Made by a program: the position numbers and the translations under genes
Shown here: in pieces, positions 2,921 through 16,112 of the stretch
How the letters are laid out: every line of letters starts with the position of its first letter
Position numbering within the stretch: position 1 is the first letter of the stretch
Source: an uncultured Bacteroidales bacterium
GTDB lineage: Bacteria; Bacteroidota; Bacteroidia; Bacteroidales; Muribaculaceae
Direction: 5' to 3'
Assembly: GCA_902784675.1 (NCBI GenBank)
Contig: CACZVR010000006.1
Location: 1-43,160 of the forward strand
Length of the DNA stretch: 43,160 nucleotides
The notes under the pieces: generated by a model
Seen by the model: only the letters and a program-made list of their open reading frames with translations
Told to the model about the DNA's origin: nothing
Database searches by the model: none

Positions 2921-5900
2921 TTAGCGATTGAGATATTCCATGATGCGGGTCATGAGGCTGGTGCGCTCCTGAACGGTGGTCACCGTCTCGAGCGGGAAGC
3001 CCATCACAACCGTGCGGTAAGTGTCGCGGTCACTTGCGATGGCTGCTGGCAGACCGTTCTCGCCGTAACGCAACCAGGTGAAGCCACGGTCGTCGCTGGC
3101 ACGGATGGCGTCGGGCGACTCGACAGCATATTGCTTGTCATTCAACGTGTTCACGAATGTCCATTCGCCAGGAGATGACAGGTTATTGGACTGACTGTCA
3201 ACAGCTGTGACTGTGCCATCGAGCGAAGCACGGCCTTGCAAACCCTCAAAGCCGAGTACATCCTTGACAAAGGACTTACCCGCCTCGTCGGTGTTGCCAG
3301 CGGCATTGTCCCACAGGTCGCTGCCCACATAGGCACCCGAGAGCATGACACTGCCGCCACGGCCTGTGAAACGACGCAGGGCATCCTTCAGTCCTGCGGT
3401 ATAAATCTTAAAGCGCGAAGGCTTGAGGCCGCTGCCGGTGGGAATCTCCTTCTGCTTACCCAAGATGAGGTCCAACAGGCTGAAACCGTCGGTATCATAA
3501 TTATCTTCCAAGGCCTGCTGGCTGCACGACACAAAGGAGTAGCCCGCATTCATCAACGCCTCGCCATGCACCGCCGGGTAGTCGAAGGTGTTACCCGCCA
3601 CATTCATGGTCTCGTGGTCGCTGCGACTGCTGCCGAAGCCAGGCGCATCATCGTCTTTCCACTCTAGGGAACGACGGAACTCATACTGCGAGCCCAGGTA
3701 ATTGATCTGTTGGATGTAAGGCACGCCGTGGTCCTTGTTGTCGTCAAAGCCAGCACGGTCGGGGCCATCAAACCAGTCGGGGGCACTCACACGGGTGAAG
3801 CCGTTCACCACCAGCACATCACCCTGGCTGCCCGCCGCCTCGCCCAGACTCAGCGTCTCGCTGGGGAAACTGCGTCCGCCATCGTTCATGGCGATGAGGC
3901 GGTAGGAGTGGATCTCGTGGTCATTGATGCGCACGCTGTACTGCGGTCCACGCGTGGTGGCGATTTCCTTGAAGGCACCGTCCAAACCCACACGCTCACA
4001 CACGATGTAGCTTGTGGGATCGGCATTGTCACTCAACTCGTCATGGGTGGGATCCCACGTGAGCAAGTAATGATGCTTGTCGGTCTTGTTGATGGCAAAA
4101 TTGTTGACCGGCAACGGCTGCACCACATAGGAGCGGTGGTCGCGCTGGGCGATGAACTTGAGCATACCTTTATAGATAGCACGGCTCACATCGAAGCGGA
4201 ACATCGGGTCAAGGCCGTATTTCATATCGGCGAAATTCTGGTGCGAGAGCAACTCCATGAGCACCGCGGGCACCTCGGGCACACGAGCCTCGTAGTAGCT
4301 CTTGTCCCACATGCCACGGCGCGTCCAGTTGGGTTCCCACTTGGCACGGATGTCCTTGACAATCTCGGTCGAGAGCAGGTTGCAATAGCGACGCGAGAGT
4401 TCGCGCGGTGTGCCGTTGGCATACTTGCCGAATTTCTTGCCACCACTGTTGGTGCAGTAGATCAACAAGGTGCCGACAATCTCGTTGTCGGGCGTGGTGC
4501 CGGCATCGGTGTGCAGGCAGAAGGAAATGTCTACCGGCACATTCAAGCCGCCACGATCGGGCAGCACATCGCTGCCACCGGCCAGGTAGTTCACCCACTC
4601 GCCACGGCTGCGGTAGTCGTCGGTGTAGTCGTTGATGCCATGGGAGGTCGAATAGACGCTGTCGGGGAAACCAGCCCATTGCAGGTAGTAGCGTGAACCA
4701 AGGTGGAACCAAGGATGCTCGCCACTGCCGATGTAGCTGTATTCAATGCCTTCTTTTCCCAAATATTTCTCATTTTCCTGCTCAGCAGCGATGAGGCGAT
4801 TCTCCTCGGTGGGCAGAGCCACACGACGGGCGATGTTGCCCTTGCCGCCACCCACCTTGATGGCATCGGCAGTAATGACAGCGTCCTTGTCGTCGCTGAG
4901 GTTAGACACTTCGACCACAGCCTTGTTCAAGCCCTTGGCCAACGGGAACATGCCCAGAAATACCCACACGCCTCCTGCCATCGTCTGGTCGACGCGGAAC
5001 TGGCGAGTCCCGCTCAAGCTGTTGACCGTGTAGGCCACGTCGCGGGCACTGTTGGGCAATGACTTGTAAGAGATATAAACGGCAAACTCGCCGGCCTCGG
5101 GCATATCCACGTCCCATGAAGCGGTCGAGAGTTTCTTCTTGTCCTTCTCGGCTTTGACCATGCGGTAAGAGCCCTCGGTGAAAGGATTCTCAAAGTCCTT
5201 GTATTGCTGACGCAAGTAGGCGAAACCGTTTTCGGTGCCGTCTTGCCATCGTTGCTTGCCGTTGTGCTCGTTGTAGCCCTGCTGCGCCTCGCCGCCGTCG
5301 TTATCAACCACAGCACCGAAGTTGTGGGTGTCGCGCTCGCGGGCATTCCACACATAGGCGCCCGCGTTCTCCAACATGGGGATGAGGAACGGCAGTACAT
5401 AGCTGTGGGTGTACATGTCCTCGACCGTCTGCATCAGGCGGGCGCGCTGCCACTCCCAGCGGTTGAGCTTGGGCTCGAAATACCAGCCATGGCTGGGCCA
5501 CATCGCCACGATGTTGCCGTCCAGACCGTGCTTGTAATGACGGTTGGCGTCCATCTCGCTGATGAAGGGGTCGTGACTGCGCTTGTAGGCCGGTTCATAG
5601 TCGGCAAAGTACTTGTTGATGTCATTGCCCACGATGGTGATGAACACGGGACAGTCATTGAAATCACGACCCAGCGCTTCGCGGATCTCGTCGCGCATCT
5701 GCTCTACCCCAGCCTGGGTAAACGGCACGTCACCGAAGTTCTCGCTCACGTCCACCTTGAGGGTGTCATTCTCCAGCGTCAAAGAACGCAACTTCAACTG
5801 GCCCACACCCATGTGCTCGGGCAGTTTGCTGGCAATAACCTGTTGCACGGCATCCTGCTGCTCCTGGGTAAAATCCTGGGCCTGCAGATTCAAGACCACT

Positions 5901-5956
5901 GTCATACAGAAGGCCACACTCAGCAATACTCGATACAAATGTTTCATTATCTTCAT
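2921..5956 (-). CDS. Secreted xanthan-lyase/golvesin-type N-acetylmuramoyl-L-alanine amidase
   Basis: A 1011-residue exported protein with a signal peptide (residues 1-27, ending LNLQAQ). The amidase_3-type fold appears split: an N-terminal part around 148-215 with SHGWYFEP (H156), then a golvesin/xanthan-lyase carbohydrate-binding-like domain (about 262-372), then the rest of the catalytic fold at 450-605 with FCLHTDAGTTPD (zinc-ligand candidate H482) and VPAVLMELLSHQ (catalytic Glu candidate E568). A fibronectin-III-like module follows (about 612-705), then a flavodoxin/GATase-like domain (from about residue 715) to the end. It probably cuts the amide bond between MurNAc and the stem peptide in the periplasm or at the surface. 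No type IX sorting tail is evident. An alternative start is M4. It is one of three amidase-type genes on this strand within 14 kb. Confidence 0.8.
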   Translation of the reverse strand: MKIMKHLYRVLLSVAFCMTVVLNLQAQDFTQEQQDAVQQVIASKLPEHMGVGQLKLRSLTLENDTLKVDVSENFGDVPFTQAGVEQMRDEIREALGRDFNDCPVFITIVGNDINKYFADYEPAYKRSHDPFISEMDANRHYKHGLDGNIVAMWPSHGWYFEPKLNRWEWQRARLMQTVEDMYTHSYVLPFLIPMLENAGAYVWNARERDTHNFGAVVDNDGGEAQQGYNEHNGKQRWQDGTENGFAYLRQQYKDFENPFTEGSYRMVKAEKDKKKLSTASWDVDMPEAGEFAVYISYKSLPNSARDVAYTVNSLSGTRQFRVDQTMAGGVWVFLGMFPLAKGLNKAVVEVSNLSDDKDAVITADAIKVGGGKGNIARRVALPTEENRLIAAEQENEKYLGKEGIEYSYIGSGEHPWFHLGSRYYLQWAGFPDSVYSTSHGINDYTDDYRSRGEWVNYLAGGSDVLPDRGGLNVPVDISFCLHTDAGTTPDNEIVGTLLIYCTNSGGKKFGKYANGTPRELSRRYCNLLSTEIVKDIRAKWEPNWTRRGMWDKSYYEARVPEVPAVLMELLSHQNFADMKYGLDPMFRFDVSRAIYKGMLKFIAQRDHRSYVVQPLPVNNFAINKTDKHHYLLTWDPTHDELSDNADPTSYIVCERVGLDGAFKEIATTRGPQYSVRINDHEIHSYRLIAMNDGGRSFPSETLSLGEAAGSQGDVLVVNGFTRVSAPDWFDGPDRAGFDDNKDHGVPYIQQINYLGSQYEFRRSLEWKDDDAPGFGSSRSDHETMNVAGNTFDYPAVHGEALMNAGYSFVSCSQQALEDNYDTDGFSLLDLILGKQKEIPTGSGLKPSRFKIYTAGLKDALRRFTGRGGSVMLSGAYVGSDLWDNAAGNTDEAGKSFVKDVLGFEGLQGRASLDGTVTAVDSQSNNLSSPGEWTFVNTLNDKQYAVESPDAIRASDDRGFTWLRYGENGLPAAIASDRDTYRTVVMGFPLETVTTVQERTSLMTRIMEYLNR

Positions 5957-8927: not shown

Positions 8928-9785
8928 TCAAGCTTGGTCGCTGTGATAGGCCACGAGGCCCGGCATGGAACTGAGGAGGATTTTGCGCACCGTGGCGCCG
9001 AAGTCGTTGGCCACCTCGAGAAGGATCTCGCTGTAGGTAGTAGCAATGGAGCCGACGAAGTTGACCGGATAGTTCTTGTAATCATACTGGCTCACATTGC
9101 GCTCAAAAAAGCGCCTGAACTCATGCGCAATCATGTCATGGACATAGGGGCTGTCGAGATGCTCACTCAAGAAGAAGGAATAGGCACGCAGGTTGCGCGT
9201 GGCGGCAGGGTTGTTGAGCACTGCATCGAGCACCTCGGCGCGCGTCACCTTGTACTTGTCAAAGAATGCCTCGGTCAGTTCCTTGGGGGCAAGCCCCTTG
9301 AGCGCATCGCCCAGGAACACGCGACCCAACGCAGCGCCGCTGCCCTCGTCACCCAAGATGAAGCCCAACGCGGGCACATTCTTCACAATCTGGTTGCCGT
9401 CATAGAAACAGGAATTGCTACCAGTTCCCAAGATGCAGGCCAAACCCGGCCCGCGCACCAAGAGTCCGCGCGCAGCACCCAGCAGGTCGCTCATCACCGT
9501 CACGGGCGTCTTGAACTGCGCCACCAATGACCCCTCGATGATCTTATTCTTCTCGGGACCCGAACAGCCGGCGCCATAGAAATAGACATGGCTCCAGCGG
9601 CGCTTGAAAAACGTGGGCGGCAACTCCAGGCGGATGCTGTGACTGATCTCGCGACGAGTCATGAAAAACGGGTTCAAACCCGAAGTGAACGCGTGTTCCA
9701 CCTCTTGACCGTTCTCAATCAACGACCATTCGGTTCGCGTCGTGCTGCTCTCAGCAATCAAGATTGTATTTTGACCTTTTATCAT
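8928..9785 (-). CDS. BadF/BadG-family amino-sugar kinase (N-acetylglucosamine kinase-like)
   Basis: A 285-residue cytoplasmic ASKHA-fold kinase. The N-terminal phosphate loop reads LIAESSTTRTEW (residues 9-20) where the family usually has a D(G/S)GxT-type motif; the second phosphate and adenosine motifs are seen as CILGTGSNSCF and GFILGDEGSGAALGR. The BadF/BadG/BcrA/BcrD family in Bacteroidota includes GlcNAc kinases and the MurNAc/GlcNAc kinase MurK. Family and length fit a sugar kinase; the sugar is inferred. Its position among amidase genes and a SpoIID protein suggests it phosphorylates amino sugars released from peptidoglycan. It has its own -7 box upstream, so it need not be co-transcribed with the MG2/plug gene. 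Confidence 0.75.
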   Translation of the reverse strand: MIKGQNTILIAESSTTRTEWSLIENGQEVEHAFTSGLNPFFMTRREISHSIRLELPPTFFKRRWSHVYFYGAGCSGPEKNKIIEGSLVAQFKTPVTVMSDLLGAARGLLVRGPGLACILGTGSNSCFYDGNQIVKNVPALGFILGDEGSGAALGRVFLGDALKGLAPKELTEAFFDKYKVTRAEVLDAVLNNPAATRNLRAYSFFLSEHLDSPYVHDMIAHEFRRFFERNVSQYDYKNYPVNFVGSIATTYSEILLEVANDFGATVRKILLSSMPGLVAYHSDQA

Positions 9786-10785: not shown

Positions 10786-13209
10786 TTAGTTGAGGAGAAT
10801 CTTTTGGGTTGAGGAGGTGCCGTTGATGTGAACGCGCACGAGATAGACTCCGCGTGCAAGGTCGGCCACATTCAAGCAGTTGCCAGCGGCGGCTTTCACG
10901 CATCGGCCGTTCATGTCGATCAGTTCAATGCCCTGCACCCAGGTGTCGGCACTGGCGACAATGTAGTCGCCATCACACTTCACCTTGAGGTTGGCCATCT
11001 TAACCTCGTCGATGCCACTAGACTCACCTCTCACCATATCATCCAACTTGAGGGTGCCTGTCTTACCCATCATCTCGCTTCCGCACCGCAGTATCAATTC
11101 CTTCAAGAAATAATCATTATCCGGAACGAGATCTTTCAAATTCACCTCAACATACCGCCATCCATGGAAGTCAATCTTGCAAAGCGGAACTATGACGACA
11201 CCGCTCACTGTGGGCGAAATGAGTTTCATCGAGAGATCATTATAGGACATATCTCCCCACACATGGATACCCAGCTTGTTACCGCGAACGAAAGGCTGTT
11301 CCCACTCTTCTTTCTCCAATCCCCAATCAGGAGAATAAGACAAGAAGATCTGCCCGTCCATATTCGCAAATTGGTAGTCGATCACCAAGGCGCCACCCAG
11401 CAAGCCTAAATCATATTCACTATTGCAACTGGCATTGCCGTTACTTCCCATGCCCAAGTAGGGATGATCCTCCCAGTAATCAAACCCCTCGACCAACGCC
11501 ATACCCGGTTTGTCGGCTCCAGCATCGACAGCATGGAAAATGATGTCGCGGGCAGCAGGCAAATGGTTGCCGGCAGTGTCGGCGATGTCAGCGTCGAGGA
11601 TGAGATGGTAATCTTCGTCCGGAACGAGGTCTCTGACGAGTGGAATGCGCACGAAGCCATAATCGTCCCCCCTCTTGTTGTACTTGATGCTGCGCTTGTT
11701 CCAAGGCACCTCTTCGCCGGCACTGTTAAGCACACGCATGCGACGGAACAAATTGTAGGTGTCGAGCAGAGAATCCACACGCAATTCCACGGTGGGGGTC
11801 GTGTAGTGGACCGGAGCGTCCTCGTAGGGGAAGACGGCCAGCTCGGTGAGGTGATTGCGTGCCTGGGTATAGAACTGCATTGTGAAGTCCTGCGCCATGG
11901 GCGTGCCACCGCTATGCTCGGCTGATTTCTTGAGCGTGAACGTGTAAAGGGTGTTCACGTCAAAGGCATCCTCGGGTGTGAAGGTCAGGCGACGATAGGA
12001 ATCCTCCCATTTGAAATTGCCCCCGGCAGGGGGATTCAGGGTGAAAGCGCTGCACGTCGTGGCACTGTCCATATTACAGTTGAAGGTAAGGACAATGGGC
12101 GTGCTGCAGTTCACGGCCGGGTCACCCTCATGCCACACGGGGCAGTACTCCACCACCTCGGGAGGTGCGTCATCGATGCTCTTGAGGTAGAAGTTCTGGT
12201 AGATTGGCACGTTAGCATTCACCATGACCGTCTTGCTCTGGGTGATATGCAGAGGGCTGCCCACCTGTAGGGTGTAAGTGCCCGGGGTGACATACTTGAA
12301 AAGATAGATGCCGTTGCGCAGCGTGTCGGTTGTGCAAGTCTGCACCACGTTGCCGCTGCCGTCGAGCAGCCGCACCTCGGCATTGTGGACGGGCATCAGG
12401 TCATCGTCGCCGAAGACGACGAACGGTTGGGCACATTCCTGAAGGCGCTTGTTGTGTTCATCGCGCACGTTACCGGTGACCACGCCCAAGCCATAAGTGC
12501 CCACACGGCCGAAATACAAGTCGGCGCCTAATGAGATGTTCCACCCCTCCATCCAGCAGTAATAAGGGCTGAGCAGACGGTAAGCCTCGGGGATGTAATC
12601 GTGGAACGAACCTTCGCTCAAGTTGGCGACAGCGTAGTTGCCGCGCAGCACGCCATATCCCTGTGTGCCCCACTCGGGACGGAACGACCAGTCGCCCCAA
12701 ATCTGGTAGCTGCTGGTCCATACAGTGTTCTTGTTGGCATACAGATAAGGCTCCAAGTCGGCCGCCAGCACATCGGCATAGGCGACCTGAGGCGAACCCG
12801 TGTAGCCTCGATAAAACACCATCGGGTAATTGCATCGTGCGCTCGTGCCCGTGGCATTGCTGTGCACCGAATAGAAAACGTCGGCACCGCTCTGGTTACA
12901 CAGGGCCACGATGGTCGAGAGCGCCAGATCGTCGGCGGTGGTATTGGTCACGCGCGAGATGGAGGTATTGTAGCCTTTCTTCTGCAGAATCTCCTGCAGG
13001 GCGAGACCCTTGCGCAGATTGGATTTGGACTCCCACGAGCCTGCCGTATCGCCCTGGGCGAACGGATAGATGACTACGTTGCGGTCATCGCTGTCATAGC
13101 CACCATGCCCTGGGTTGATATAGACATGGGGCTGCTGGGCAGTTGCGACACTCACGACAAAGGCCGCCAGCATCGCCATGACCGCAAATCTGAAGAAATC
13201 CCTTTTCAT
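10786..13209 (-). CDS. Secreted N-acetylmuramoyl-L-alanine amidase with T9SS sorting tail
   Basis: An 807-residue exported protein: signal peptide 1-24 (ending VATAQ), amidase_3 domain at about 27-225, carboxypeptidase-regulatory-like module (about 240-345), an SbsA-type Ig-like domain (about 355-450, with CNMDSATTC), further beta domains, and a type IX secretion sorting tail at the C-terminus (ending GVYLVRVHINGTSSTQKILLN). Zinc-site residues are visible: H35 in NPGHGG, E60 in SWESKSN, H116 in VHSNAT, and catalytic E199 in LSEGSFHDY. The T9SS tail predicts export across the outer membrane. The amidase and following regulatory module are clearly paralogous to the C-terminal half of the protein at 14166-16112. 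The gene starts 14 nt after the stop of the separate propeller gene (13224-14117), so the two are surely co-transcribed. Confidence 0.88.
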   Translation of the reverse strand: MKRDFFRFAVMAMLAAFVVSVATAQQPHVYINPGHGGYDSDDRNVVIYPFAQGDTAGSWESKSNLRKGLALQEILQKKGYNTSISRVTNTTADDLALSTIVALCNQSGADVFYSVHSNATGTSARCNYPMVFYRGYTGSPQVAYADVLAADLEPYLYANKNTVWTSSYQIWGDWSFRPEWGTQGYGVLRGNYAVANLSEGSFHDYIPEAYRLLSPYYCWMEGWNISLGADLYFGRVGTYGLGVVTGNVRDEHNKRLQECAQPFVVFGDDDLMPVHNAEVRLLDGSGNVVQTCTTDTLRNGIYLFKYVTPGTYTLQVGSPLHITQSKTVMVNANVPIYQNFYLKSIDDAPPEVVEYCPVWHEGDPAVNCSTPIVLTFNCNMDSATTCSAFTLNPPAGGNFKWEDSYRRLTFTPEDAFDVNTLYTFTLKKSAEHSGGTPMAQDFTMQFYTQARNHLTELAVFPYEDAPVHYTTPTVELRVDSLLDTYNLFRRMRVLNSAGEEVPWNKRSIKYNKRGDDYGFVRIPLVRDLVPDEDYHLILDADIADTAGNHLPAARDIIFHAVDAGADKPGMALVEGFDYWEDHPYLGMGSNGNASCNSEYDLGLLGGALVIDYQFANMDGQIFLSYSPDWGLEKEEWEQPFVRGNKLGIHVWGDMSYNDLSMKLISPTVSGVVIVPLCKIDFHGWRYVEVNLKDLVPDNDYFLKELILRCGSEMMGKTGTLKLDDMVRGESSGIDEVKMANLKVKCDGDYIVASADTWVQGIELIDMNGRCVKAAAGNCLNVADLARGVYLVRVHINGTSSTQKILLN

Positions 13210-13223
13210 GATGTTGTAGTGGT

Positions 13224-14117
13224 TTACTCGTGAATGTTGATGGTCATCTCATAGAGCAGGCCGTCGATGGTCGTGTAGACGATGCGGCCACCACCGCAGG
13301 TGGGTTGCATCGTCATTGAGGCCGGCTTGGTCAGTTCGGCTTTGAAGGTGCCATCGGCCTTGAGCAGCAGAATCTGTGAGGATGTGAACTGGTGTCCGTC
13401 ATCCTTGGCGTTTTGCGCCACCAGGTAGTCGTTGTTGTACCAGCATGGCATTTCATAGTTGCCCAGCATGGCTAGCATCTGGCCGCGCAGGTCGATGATC
13501 ACGATGCCCTTGCCCGCCGCAAAGAACGCCACACGTTTGCCATCGGGCGAGAGCGAGGCCCACAAATAGCCCGCCCAAGAATCCACGGGTGCAAAGACAC
13601 GTTCCTCGCCACCCACAATGACGTGGACACGGCTGCCCTCGGTCCAGGCAGCATCGCCGATGTCATCGCTCGAGGTGTAGTTGGCAGCAGGCGCCCTGAG
13701 GGTTCCACCGCGAGTTGCAGACACGGCACGCACTGCTCCGTGCTGCGGCTGGGTGATTACAGCACTGCGGCCCGTCACCAGGTCATAGCTGTTGCCCGTG
13801 CGGTAAATCAAGTGGTTTTCATCCATCTGCTGGGTGACGAAATAGACCTTGCCGTCGCCGCCGAAACAGGCATCGTTGCCCGCCACATAGTCGCGCGTCA
13901 CCACTTGAGTCACATTGTCGGAAAAGTCATAGACCTTCAATGCCCCATTGTCGCTGGCAAACAACAAACGGTCGCCCGACTTGTTGAGCACGGGGTGAAA
14001 AGCAGGTCCCTCAACACCCTCGAGCAGACGCTTGAGCGAGGTCACTTCCACCTCTTGGGCGCACACCGGCTGCAGCATGGCAACCAGCGCCAAAATGACG
14101 ACCAGTTTTTTCATCAT
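13224..14117 (-). CDS. Secreted TolB/WD40-like beta-propeller protein
   Basis: A 297-residue protein with signal peptide (MMKKLVVILALVAMLQPVCAQ; M2 is an equally good start) and a propeller-type repeat architecture. It parallels residues 30-297 of the propeller-amidase at 14166-16112 segment by segment: FGGDGKVYFVTQ against FGGDGKVYYVTQ, LIYRTGNSYDLVTG against LLYRTGHCYDPATG, LWASLSPDGKRV against LWASLSPDGTRV, MPCWYNNDYLVA against MPCWYNNDYIVA. It stops just where the amidase domain begins in the paralogue. No catalytic residues or T9SS tail are seen, so it should remain periplasmic. It lies 48 nt after the propeller-amidase gene and 14 nt before the free-standing amidase gene. Function unknown; a ligand-binding partner for the neighbouring amidase is the natural inference. 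Confidence 0.8.
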   Translation of the reverse strand: MMKKLVVILALVAMLQPVCAQEVEVTSLKRLLEGVEGPAFHPVLNKSGDRLLFASDNGALKVYDFSDNVTQVVTRDYVAGNDACFGGDGKVYFVTQQMDENHLIYRTGNSYDLVTGRSAVITQPQHGAVRAVSATRGGTLRAPAANYTSSDDIGDAAWTEGSRVHVIVGGEERVFAPVDSWAGYLWASLSPDGKRVAFFAAGKGIVIIDLRGQMLAMLGNYEMPCWYNNDYLVAQNAKDDGHQFTSSQILLLKADGTFKAELTKPASMTMQPTCGGGRIVYTTIDGLLYEMTINIHE

Positions 14118-14165
14118 CCTAATTTCTTTTAATCTATCATTATCAAGAAGTCACATCGGTGAAGC

Positions 14166-16112
14166 TTATTTTTTCTTTTTCTTGGGCTTCATGTCCTTCT
14201 TCATCTTCAAGTTCTTGTAAGTGGTCTGGTTGCTCTTTGCCTTCACATGGGTCGTGATATACAGATCCTCGTTGCCGTAATAGAGCTCCAGCTTGTACTT
14301 GTCTTTGGGCAGATTGGTGAACACGAACACGCCGTTATCGCGGTTGTCAAGCGTGTAGATGCGTGCAAGCACGCCACGGCTGTTATACAGGCGCAGCAAC
14401 GCACCGTTCAACGGTTTCAAGCGGTCTTCGCCGAAGACGCGCTGGTCCTGGTCGCGGCGCGGGGTATCTTCCCAACGCACAGCGCCGGCAATCACGCCGT
14501 TCTTGAATTTGCCCTCACGGCCAAAGTATTCATCTATGCCTATCGACTGGTTCCACGCCTCAAGCCAGCAGTAGTTGTCACAGAACAAGCGTTCGCGCTC
14601 GGGAAGGTAGTCGTGGAAGGAGCCCTCGCTCAACATGCCAGGCAACTTGTTGTAGCGCAACACACCCAAGCCGACACGATAGCCCCAATCATAGAATGAC
14701 CAGTCGCCACGGCTGCGCTCCTTGTGAGACCACACGGCAACATCGTTCAGGTAGAGGTTTCTCATCACCGCCTCGCTGAGTTGGAGACTGCCCTCGACAG
14801 CCGGTTTGCCATCCCATCCGCGGTACAGCCCCAGCGGGAAGTTCACACGGTTCTGTGTGCCAGTGGCATTGCTGTGAATGGCGAAGAAGATGTCGGCACC
14901 ACTGTTGGCGGCCAAAGCCACGATTTCAAACAAATCCAAATCGTCCTCGGTGGTGTTGGTCGTGCGTGAAATGGCCGTCTCGTAGCCCTTGTTTTCCAAA
15001 ATTTCAACGAGGGCGAGGCCCTTGGTAAGGTTAGAATTGGACTCGTAGTAATGTAATGTGTCACGAGCACCGATTACCCATGTGGGGATGTGACGGTCAT
15101 CGCTGTCATGTCCGCCGTGGCCAGGGTTGATGAACACACGAGGCACATCCTTCTTGCTCACGGGGTCCTTCACCTTTTGGCTCTTGCCCTTGCCCGACGC
15201 CATGACCGGCGAAGCAGCAGGAGCGAGGTTCAGTTCTACTTGCTTCACCTCGCCGCTGTACTGAATCGTGTAGATGACCTTGCCGCTGGCCACCATGGGC
15301 TGCACAGCACGTTCATCCTCAGGCGAAATGGGTTCACACACGCGCCCGTCAAGCGATAGCAACCAGATGCGCGATCCATTGATGAGCGAGTTGCCTGCGT
15401 TGCTCATCGCAACGATATAGTCATTGTTGTACCAGCAGGGCATCAGGAACGGGCCCAGCTCATTGATGATCTGGCCGTTCAGGTCACAAATCAGAATGCC
15501 CCTGGTCGCTGACTCGAACATCACCCGCGTTCCGTCGGGTGAAAGCGAGGCCCACAACAGGCCATTGCTCGTTCGGTCGGGCTGCATCGAGCGTGTGACA
15601 CCCTTCTCGTCAACCAGATAGAGGGAGGTGCCACGCGTGTAGGCATAGGCGCCCACCTTGGAGTTGCTGTGATAAACCTGTTTCTCGCCATTGATGACGA
15701 CGCCATGTGCCGCCTGCAGTGGCTGGACGCGGCCATGCTGCGCCTTGAGCACCACCTGATCCTTGCCTGTGGCGGGGTCATAGCAGTGGCCCGTGCGATA
15801 TAACAGGCCGTTCTTTTTGCGCGCCTGTGTGACGTAATAGACCTTGCCGTCGCCACCGAAGATGACATCAAAACCCGGATAATCCTTTGCCGCAATAACC
15901 TTCTCGGTCCCTGTCGACAGATTTTTCAACATCAGCTGGGTGGCATCGGTGGGTGAATAAAGCAGCCACAGACCATCAGGACTCAACTGCGGGAAGAAGC
16001 CGCAACTGTCAACCAGTGTCCTCGCACTGCCCGGTTTCACAACCTGGGCAGTTGCTGTCATTGCGCACAAGAGGCACAACAACATGAATAATTTCTTTAT
16101 CATTTCAGCCAT
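14166..16112 (-). CDS. Beta-propeller/N-acetylmuramoyl-L-alanine amidase fusion
   Basis: A 648-residue exported protein. Signal peptide at 1-23 (ending TATAQ; an alternative start is M4). Residues 30-297 form a TolB-like propeller (FFPQLSPDGLWLLY, WASLSPDGTRV). A linker (298-325) leads to an amidase_3 domain at 326-530 with H332 in NPGHGG, E357 in YESNSN, H413 in IHSNAT and catalytic E496 in LSEGSFHDY. A carboxypeptidase-regulatory-like module follows (about 548-635), and the protein ends in a lysine-rich tail (KKDMKPKKKKK). There is no T9SS tail, so it is expected in the periplasm, where it would cleave stem peptides from peptidoglycan. It is the first gene of a three-gene unit with the split paralogues downstream, and has a -7 box 18 nt upstream of the start. 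Confidence 0.88.
   Translation of the reverse strand: MAEMIKKLFMLLCLLCAMTATAQVVKPGSARTLVDSCGFFPQLSPDGLWLLYSPTDATQLMLKNLSTGTEKVIAAKDYPGFDVIFGGDGKVYYVTQARKKNGLLYRTGHCYDPATGKDQVVLKAQHGRVQPLQAAHGVVINGEKQVYHSNSKVGAYAYTRGTSLYLVDEKGVTRSMQPDRTSNGLLWASLSPDGTRVMFESATRGILICDLNGQIINELGPFLMPCWYNNDYIVAMSNAGNSLINGSRIWLLSLDGRVCEPISPEDERAVQPMVASGKVIYTIQYSGEVKQVELNLAPAASPVMASGKGKSQKVKDPVSKKDVPRVFINPGHGGHDSDDRHIPTWVIGARDTLHYYESNSNLTKGLALVEILENKGYETAISRTTNTTEDDLDLFEIVALAANSGADIFFAIHSNATGTQNRVNFPLGLYRGWDGKPAVEGSLQLSEAVMRNLYLNDVAVWSHKERSRGDWSFYDWGYRVGLGVLRYNKLPGMLSEGSFHDYLPERERLFCDNYCWLEAWNQSIGIDEYFGREGKFKNGVIAGAVRWEDTPRRDQDQRVFGEDRLKPLNGALLRLYNSRGVLARIYTLDNRDNGVFVFTNLPKDKYKLELYYGNEDLYITTHVKAKSNQTTYKNLKMKKDMKPKKKKK

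Follow-up and report, generated by a model that had tools for sequence, protein, structure and literature searches.

The window, the whole 43,160-nucleotide stretch of contig CACZVR010000006.1 (GenBank assembly GCA_902784675.1) analysed here, comes from an uncultured Bacteroidales bacterium of the family Muribaculaceae. It carries on its minus strand two versions of a two-part system made of a beta-propeller and a putative secreted cell-wall amidase (Table 1). The three open reading frames concerned (648, 297 and 807 amino acids) are those described in an earlier note made from the sequence, which had recognised the same parts fused in the first gene and separate in the two others. The comparison bears this out: the propellers of the 648- and 297-residue proteins share 37% identity over 284 columns (E 4e-56), the amidase and regulatory-like halves of the 648- and 807-residue proteins share 45% identity over 328 columns (E 2e-82), and the segments MPCWYNNDY, LWASLSPDG, NPGHGG, HSNATGT and LSEGSFHDY quoted in the note all occur in both copies. 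The likeness of both pairs of halves is far above chance. The note had also placed the split exactly at the domain border, with 14 nucleotides between the two genes. The gap is there (13210–13223), but there is no bare cut, as the separate amidase opens with its own signal-peptide-like segment (such segments were judged by eye here, without a signal-peptide predictor). This segment is followed by the amidase domain, the regulatory-like module, a Big_5 domain and a type A tail of the type IX secretion system (T9SS).

Table 1. Features of the propeller–amidase locus and of a neighbouring gene (positions in the window)
Feature	Position	Strand	Evidence
Fused gene, 648 amino acids: signal-peptide-like start, beta-propeller, Amidase_3, regulatory-like module, Lys-rich tail	14166–16112	-	Open reading frame, Pfam, AlphaFold2 model
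Propeller domain of the fused gene, residues ~25–296	15225–16040	-	Profile match, AlphaFold2 model, Foldseek (TolB/WD40)
Basic linker of 27 residues in the fused gene, at the position expected for the amidase signal peptide	15144–15224	-	pLDDT 91–97
Amidase_3 domain of the fused gene, residues 324–542, with conserved His, Glu, His, Glu	14487–15143	-	
Carboxypeptidase-regulatory-like / SpaA-SdrD-like beta module of the fused gene	14202–14486	-	Pfam below cut-off; high-pLDDT strands in model
Separate propeller gene, 297 amino acids, signal-peptide-like start; sorting tail not matched	13224–14117	-	
Separate amidase gene, 807 amino acids, signal-peptide-like start	10786–13209	-	
Amidase_3 domain of the separate gene, residues 27–245	12475–13131	-	Pfam, profile
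Big_5 immunoglobulin-like (Ig) domain of the 807-residue protein; without match in the fused gene	11866–12174	-	Pfam
T9SS type A C-terminal sorting domain of the 807-residue protein; without match in the fused gene	10792–10992	-	
Terminator-like hairpin, 15 pairs, 3' of the amidase stop codon	10707–10739	-	Consensus scan
Amino-sugar kinase, MurK/K1058 family, ~285 amino acids, beyond the hairpin	8928–9785	-	

Both window amidases match Amidase_3 in Pfam (E 3e-13 and 2e-11; 50.6 and 44.6 bits for a cut-off of 27). The PD40 matches of the propellers are weak and below the cut-off (E 0.008 and 0.003). Membership of the TolB family was considered and rejected, as the NCBIfam TolB equivalog models give 12.1 and 13 bits for cut-offs of 343.15 and 405. 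The source genome (86% complete) has three Amidase_3 matches at E 0.001, all inside the window: the fused gene, the long amidase and a weak one in a 1011-residue protein. A 17-pair terminator-like hairpin (16352–16314) lies 5' of the fused gene; between it and the 15-pair hairpin, the minus strand carries two weak matches, one of 5 pairs inside the propeller gene (13990–13973) and one of 8 pairs upstream of the fused gene (16266–16248), the consensus scan of the region giving 10 sites for 7.6 expected by shuffling. Since the 15- and 17-pair hairpins flank the three genes and only weak matches lie between, it is plausible that they form one transcription unit. The fused gene ends with a KPKK-type lysine-rich tail (14166–14202) that is common to 19 of the 20 rows of its fused clade (the exception being locus L039) and absent in the four other short fusions.

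The active-site residues are intact in all copies compared. Four residues, His, Glu, His and Glu (positions 35, 60, 116 and 199 of the 807-residue protein), are invariant in the 136 amidase domains of the tree set described below, fused and separate. In the Amidase_3 family, the first three are metal ligands and the last Glu is the catalytic residue. Judging from profile and residues, the window amidases would be Amidase_3 zinc amidases. The AlphaFold2 model of the fused protein (118 rows) has a mean predicted local distance difference test (pLDDT) score of 94.0 and a predicted template-modelling (pTM) score of 0.92, and its linker is ordered. A fusion of the other type (L113, residues 1–480, 42 rows) gives a pLDDT of 85.3 and a pTM of 0.88; according to the strand lists, its propeller has 17 strands vs 26 in the window's fused protein. 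As free halves should give a much lower pTM, the fused protein is predicted to be one confidently modelled body whose halves would not be free to move. The matches of its model in Foldseek are Amidase_3 structures and TolB/WD40-type propellers; none of the 50 matches listed for each of the two models is described as a propeller plus an amidase, and, in a Foldseek search for viral relatives, no named propeller-amidase protein is among the 50 rows listed of 944 matches, many of these rows being nameless.

The association of the two parts extends far beyond the window. Named loci were chosen by likeness to the window's family (78 kept, from the best 80 of 312, hence 79 loci with the window), and their record titles include Muribaculaceae, Odoribacter, Paludibacteraceae, Prolixibacteraceae, Marinilabiliaceae, Melioribacteraceae, Ignavibacteria and others. 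Among the 104 amidase open reading frames of these 79 loci, 75 have a propeller gene just upstream, 27 are fused to a propeller and two show neither, namely one in L102, which lies 401 nucleotides from a contig end, and L147:2962-4125, upstream of which none was recognised. The spacing is 30 nucleotides or less in 68 of the 75 pairs and the genes overlap in 14, of which 12 by 4 nucleotides. Nine of 295 genomes of the order sample match, i.e., the window's genome and eight others; seven of these eight have separate adjacent genes, and in the last one (G260) an amidase alone was found, at the start of a contig. Two of the genomes, G226 and G010, had been candidates for the fused form with the same open-frame lengths and were rejected, their genes being separate. 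Matches were found in 92 of the 297 genomes of the window's family. The propeller profile, searched in its turn, matches 21 of 247 genomes of the order sample: all 11 strong matches (>100 bits, eight genomes) lie beside an amidase or are fused to it, and the 13 weaker ones are other proteins, 12 of them with open frames of more than 800 amino acids. Several unusual arrangements were also observed. Loci L058:4044-11703 and L059:1884-13462, from two species of the window's genus (G464 and G580), carry three pairs of separate genes each, of which one is long and two are short. L189:213-3613, from the same genus, is a more divergent pair (280 and 849 amino acids, 8 nucleotides apart) with a dockerin-like end by eye. 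An Ignavibacteriae contig (L149:4009-5977) has two tandem propeller genes ahead of one amidase.

Separate trees of the propeller and amidase halves, the check proposed in the earlier note, were built from 196 units (a propeller and an amidase) chosen for having both halves. After duplicate removal, 136 were left: 73 long separate, 24 short fused, 14 long fused, 11 short separate and 14 cut by a contig end. The short forms make up a clade of 36 rows (24 fused and 12 separate; support 99 and 100 in the two half trees), which joins the long separate pairs from the same family (68 rows, support 98 and 96). Elsewhere in the trees, the 14 long fused rows make up a single clade (support 97 and 95), which corresponds to 13 loci, 11 titled Paludibacteraceae or Paludibacter and two titled Bacteroidales. 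In these fusions of about 1000 residues, mainly from Paludibacteraceae (L113:5299-8379, L107:5344-8424 and 11 more loci), the propeller profile matches with its C-terminal half only. The short fused state requires three changes in each half tree, which could in principle include losses, and a single origin of all 24 short fusions was rejected (approximately unbiased test, p 0.0087) with a careful tree of the short clade, built on concatenated domains and containing long branches. Inspected by eye, the three short groups and the long one have unrelated linkers.

As the separate pair is widespread, as far as Ignavibacteria, and the fused forms are restricted, in the sequences examined, to the short clade and one further clade, the separate adjacent pair looks ancestral and the fused gene derived. 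This reverses the title of the earlier note, which presents the pair as a split form of the fused gene. Of the two scenarios that the note had left side by side, duplication followed by gene fission and fusion of a duplicated pair, only the second one is supported. The presence of both forms next to each other in the window is what one would also expect if an ancestral fused gene had been split to give the neighbouring pair. Such a fission is extremely improbable: besides the distribution in the sequences examined, with separate pairs in many families and fusions in only two clades, the 11 short separate amidases listed all start with their own signal-peptide-like segment. Four of these 11 amidases overlap the propeller gene by 4 nucleotides. 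Taken as a whole, the history can be viewed as follows. The ancestral system would be a separate adjacent pair, whose amidase usually carries a T9SS sorting tail. The whole pair would have been duplicated in tandem in one rumen/gut genus, assigned to Muribaculaceae from record titles, and the duplicate copy would then have lost the Ig domain and the sorting tail. The genes might have come to overlap in some species before the propeller and the amidase fused in several lineages, including that of the window, a linker replacing the amidase signal peptide. A further fusion, mainly in Paludibacteraceae, would have involved a shortened propeller, with the tail retained in some members.

The two half trees are congruent: the distances in them are correlated with r 0.84 for the 136 units (largest of 200 shuffles 0.10), and with r 0.87 for the 120 units that remain when the 14 long fused rows and two odd rows are set aside (largest shuffle 0.13). 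Moreover, in 23 loci with at least two pairs, all 25 comparisons favour a half's own partner over the swapped one. This same-locus comparison is informative because the species history is identical for both paralogues. The propeller is thus encoded with the amidase and appears to coevolve with it, the exceptions being L147:2962-4125 and, as described below, a solo amidase and a fragment in genome G613. The earlier note had read the fused gene as a Rosetta stone for the separate pair; with congruent half trees, pairs that are adjacent far outside the genus and fused forms at more than one tree position, this idea is well supported by the comparative data. Alternatively, the two halves might be wall proteins that act independently and make no contact, the fusions being neutral accidents. 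Related secreted proteins often stay adjacent without any contact, which counts in favour of mere linkage, as does the existence of a solo amidase. Nevertheless, repeated fusions, tight spacing, the partner fidelity among paralogous pairs of the same locus and a confident single-body model with an ordered linker are all hard to accommodate, and this alternative is quite improbable.

The localisation of the two parts may differ between the long and the short forms. The 807-residue amidase carries a T9SS type A tail (40.7 bits for a cut-off of 23), and the source genome encodes the translocon protein SprA (2634 bits) and has six T9SS tail matches. When the last 140 residues were scanned (E 0.01), a tail was found in 70 of 86 long members and in none of 35 short ones. 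Among the fused proteins, L107 and L113 are tailed and a third one, L138, is tailless by Pfam; the propeller of L107 and L113 must travel with the enzyme, as it is fused to a tailed amidase. Ten of the 98 separate propellers match a crude lipobox pattern, as do nine of the 136 proteins that are amidases or fusions, so that most proteins of the pairs look like soluble, exported ones. These features suggest that the long amidase would be found at the cell surface and the short fused form in the periplasm, and that the separate propeller is possibly co-exported with the tailed amidase.

These data may also be read in terms of a guard. The propeller would keep the amidase inactive or export-competent in the periplasm until its export by the T9SS, thus protecting the cell's own wall, and the fused short form would be inactive until it receives a signal. 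The amidase of separate pairs is usually tailed and no tail was matched on the window's propeller; most separate propellers seem soluble. In the pairs, the propeller is encoded first, and a wall-cutting enzyme in periplasmic transit needs control. Such a guard is however unlikely, as a partner that must release its enzyme should not be fused to it, and the two were permanently joined more than once while the active-site residues stayed intact. Furthermore, the tailed fusions L107 and L113 would export the propeller along with the enzyme, and the tailless copies of the tree keep their propeller, albeit in a set selected for it. More generally, since an inhibitor that departs is difficult to reconcile with a lasting fusion whose active site is intact, the fusions argue against an inhibitor that must dissociate and favour a standing subunit.

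The most probable explanation is a dedicated two-part module of Bacteroidota that associates a secreted zinc N-acetylmuramoyl-L-alanine amidase with a TolB-type beta-propeller, encoded by an ancestral pair and repeatedly fused, in which the propeller would be a permanent subunit. The propeller would pack against the amidase, and the models of the two fused proteins are compatible with such a physical complex. It may stabilise the active enzyme and/or position the glycan strand, as GerS, ActH or EnvC would do for other Amidase_3 enzymes. The tailed enzyme would act on peptidoglycan at the cell surface and the tailless fused one in the periplasm. The architecture, the history, the fidelity of pairing, the intact active-site residues and the lack of a matched tail in the short forms come from the sequences, whereas the physical complex, activation or positioning by the propeller, the localisation and the physiological role are put forward as a working model.

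Known systems provide partial parallels. The amidases resemble those of the Amidase_3 family (PF01520; AmiC2, 5emi; CwlV, 1jwq; AmiA/B/C) in fold (TMt 0.86 and 0.84) and in the invariant residues of the family. They differ in the size of the domain, about 220 residues for a 174-position profile, in the regulatory-like module that follows it and in the propeller partner; the long form adds an Ig domain and a T9SS tail. In CwlD-GerS (7rag), LytH-ActH (7tj4) and AmiB-EnvC (8c0j), which are among the Foldseek matches listed, a dedicated second protein likewise serves an Amidase_3 enzyme. ActH is an activator and the LytM domain of EnvC a partner according to the titles of the structure entries. 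Unlike here, these partners are a lipoprotein (GerS), ActH and a LytM domain, and none is a propeller; to our knowledge, no partner of these types is fused to its amidase, although no search was made for such fusions. Binding of GerS is reported to promote zinc binding by CwlD (PMC8496864). The TolB propeller (2w8b, 4r40) is similar in being of PD40 type (Foldseek E about 1e-9 with the fused model), whereas the propeller described here has no TolB family match over the cut-off. In PorE of the T9SS, a propeller and a regulatory-like domain are likewise combined with a peptidoglycan-related one; PorE is a lipoprotein with TPR and OmpA_C-like domains, and no amidase domain is described in the available part of the source (PMC7192894).

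The last two parallels would rather suggest a targeting or carbohydrate-binding function. Just as TolB binds Pal, the propeller would recognise an outer-membrane partner, or else a polymer of the wall, without any effect on catalysis. TolB is indeed among the structural and profile relatives of the propeller, and PorE unites a propeller and a regulatory-like domain with a peptidoglycan-binding one (PMC7192894). On the other hand, there is no TolB-specific family match (12–13 bits vs 343 and 405), and a mere binding module might be swapped between enzymes, a swap that was seen in none of the 25 comparisons. This function thus seems rather doubtful, without being negligible. In the open-licence literature of PubMed Central, no title or abstract start among the matches listed describes a propeller-amidase pair or fusion, an absence that is weakly tested as subscription papers and preprints lay outside the search. 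The fold of the enzyme and that of the propeller are known; a widespread dedicated pair that combines them did not turn up in the literature searched.

The distribution of short forms within the window's genus brings in a further amidase. Other species of the genus harbour a divergent solo tailless amidase of about 383 residues (L185:1294-2445, L186:1074-2297 and L188:1248-2513), in which, as judged by eye, a similar module follows the amidase; the three loci inspected show no propeller neighbour. Genome G613 (67% complete) has a short pair and, at a contig end, a fragment of a solo-like amidase (54% identity) without upstream propeller. Among 61 genomes of the genus, classified by hand, 41 have a short pair or fusion (30 fused and 11 separate), 11 or 12 a solo amidase and nine neither; unsure cases are G593 (contig edge), G614 (solo fragment at a contig end), G616 (a stop between the halves, counted as separate) and G603 and G599 (fused, with a stop counted in the match). 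The solo amidase and a short form occur together in none or one (G613) of the 61 genomes for 7.4 expected (hypergeometric P 4e-7 if none, 4e-6 if one, kinship being ignored). The solo carriers seem to belong mostly to one subclade, plus G590, G600 and G608, as judged by the length of the long amidase and not by a tree. These data suggest that the solo amidase and the short pair or fusion may be functional alternatives. Many genomes of the genus have other Amidase_3 proteins as well (58 of 61 match).

Several points weigh against a dedicated and permanent subunit. The solo amidase, the G613 fragment and L147:2962-4125 lack a recognised propeller, so that the propeller is not needed by every relative; either one lineage can do without it or something else takes over its function. 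Linked inheritance alone can make half trees agree, a problem that the same-locus test lessens and does not remove. With a median end branch of 0.21 vs 0.079 for the amidase, the propeller is the faster-evolving half, which fits a loose partner equally well. The 136 units were selected for both halves and the 78 loci by likeness; the trees were midpoint-rooted for drawing and have long branches. Finally, pTM is no substitute for a plot of the predicted aligned error, and the contact between the halves is a putative one.

Genes found around the pairs point to peptidoglycan breakdown, through guilt by association. Beyond the terminator-like hairpin of the window lies a kinase that gives 334 bits with the Tannerella forsythia K1058 structure and 238 bits with the MurK structure, and no Pfam match at E 0.01. 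As it lies past the hairpin, it is considered a neighbour rather than an operon member. A protein of this family is present near the pair in 19 of the 79 loci, many of which are too short to show such neighbours. A NAGPA-type phosphodiester glycosidase family is found in 26 loci and a GHL10 hydrolase family in four, one member of each having been checked (with Pfam for the former). GHL10 includes DigH, which acts on peptide-free glycan. The window's kinase recalls the MurK/K1058 peptidoglycan-salvage locus of T. forsythia; unlike in the window, no amidase-propeller pair is mentioned at that locus in the available part of the source (PMC10465942). Further along the window (2921–5956), the 1011-residue Golvesin_C protein with the weak Amidase_3 match has candidate His and Glu positions by eye, and a relative is found in 16 of the 79 loci.

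The control of wall-cutting amidases is a live question, answered so far by a few partner proteins that are unrelated to one another. It is tentatively proposed, as a possibility that falls short of being probable, that the pairs belong to an undescribed, phylum-wide class of bipartite peptidoglycan amidases. The propeller would be an essential subunit that switches on or steers catalysis, which would make it the first regulator of a cell-wall amidase to be of propeller type. Members of the class occur as separate or overlapping genes and as repeated fusions, and a single locus would combine a surface version (T9SS) with a periplasmic one. For the genus of the window, the tailless paired form may fill the role given to the solo amidase in other species. 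Repeated fusion supplies single-chain and two-chain versions of the same presumed complex, which makes binding, activation and structure directly testable. The pairs would also offer a first functional lead on widespread secreted amidases of Bacteroidota, which are often found near other presumed wall-degrading enzymes or an amino-sugar kinase.

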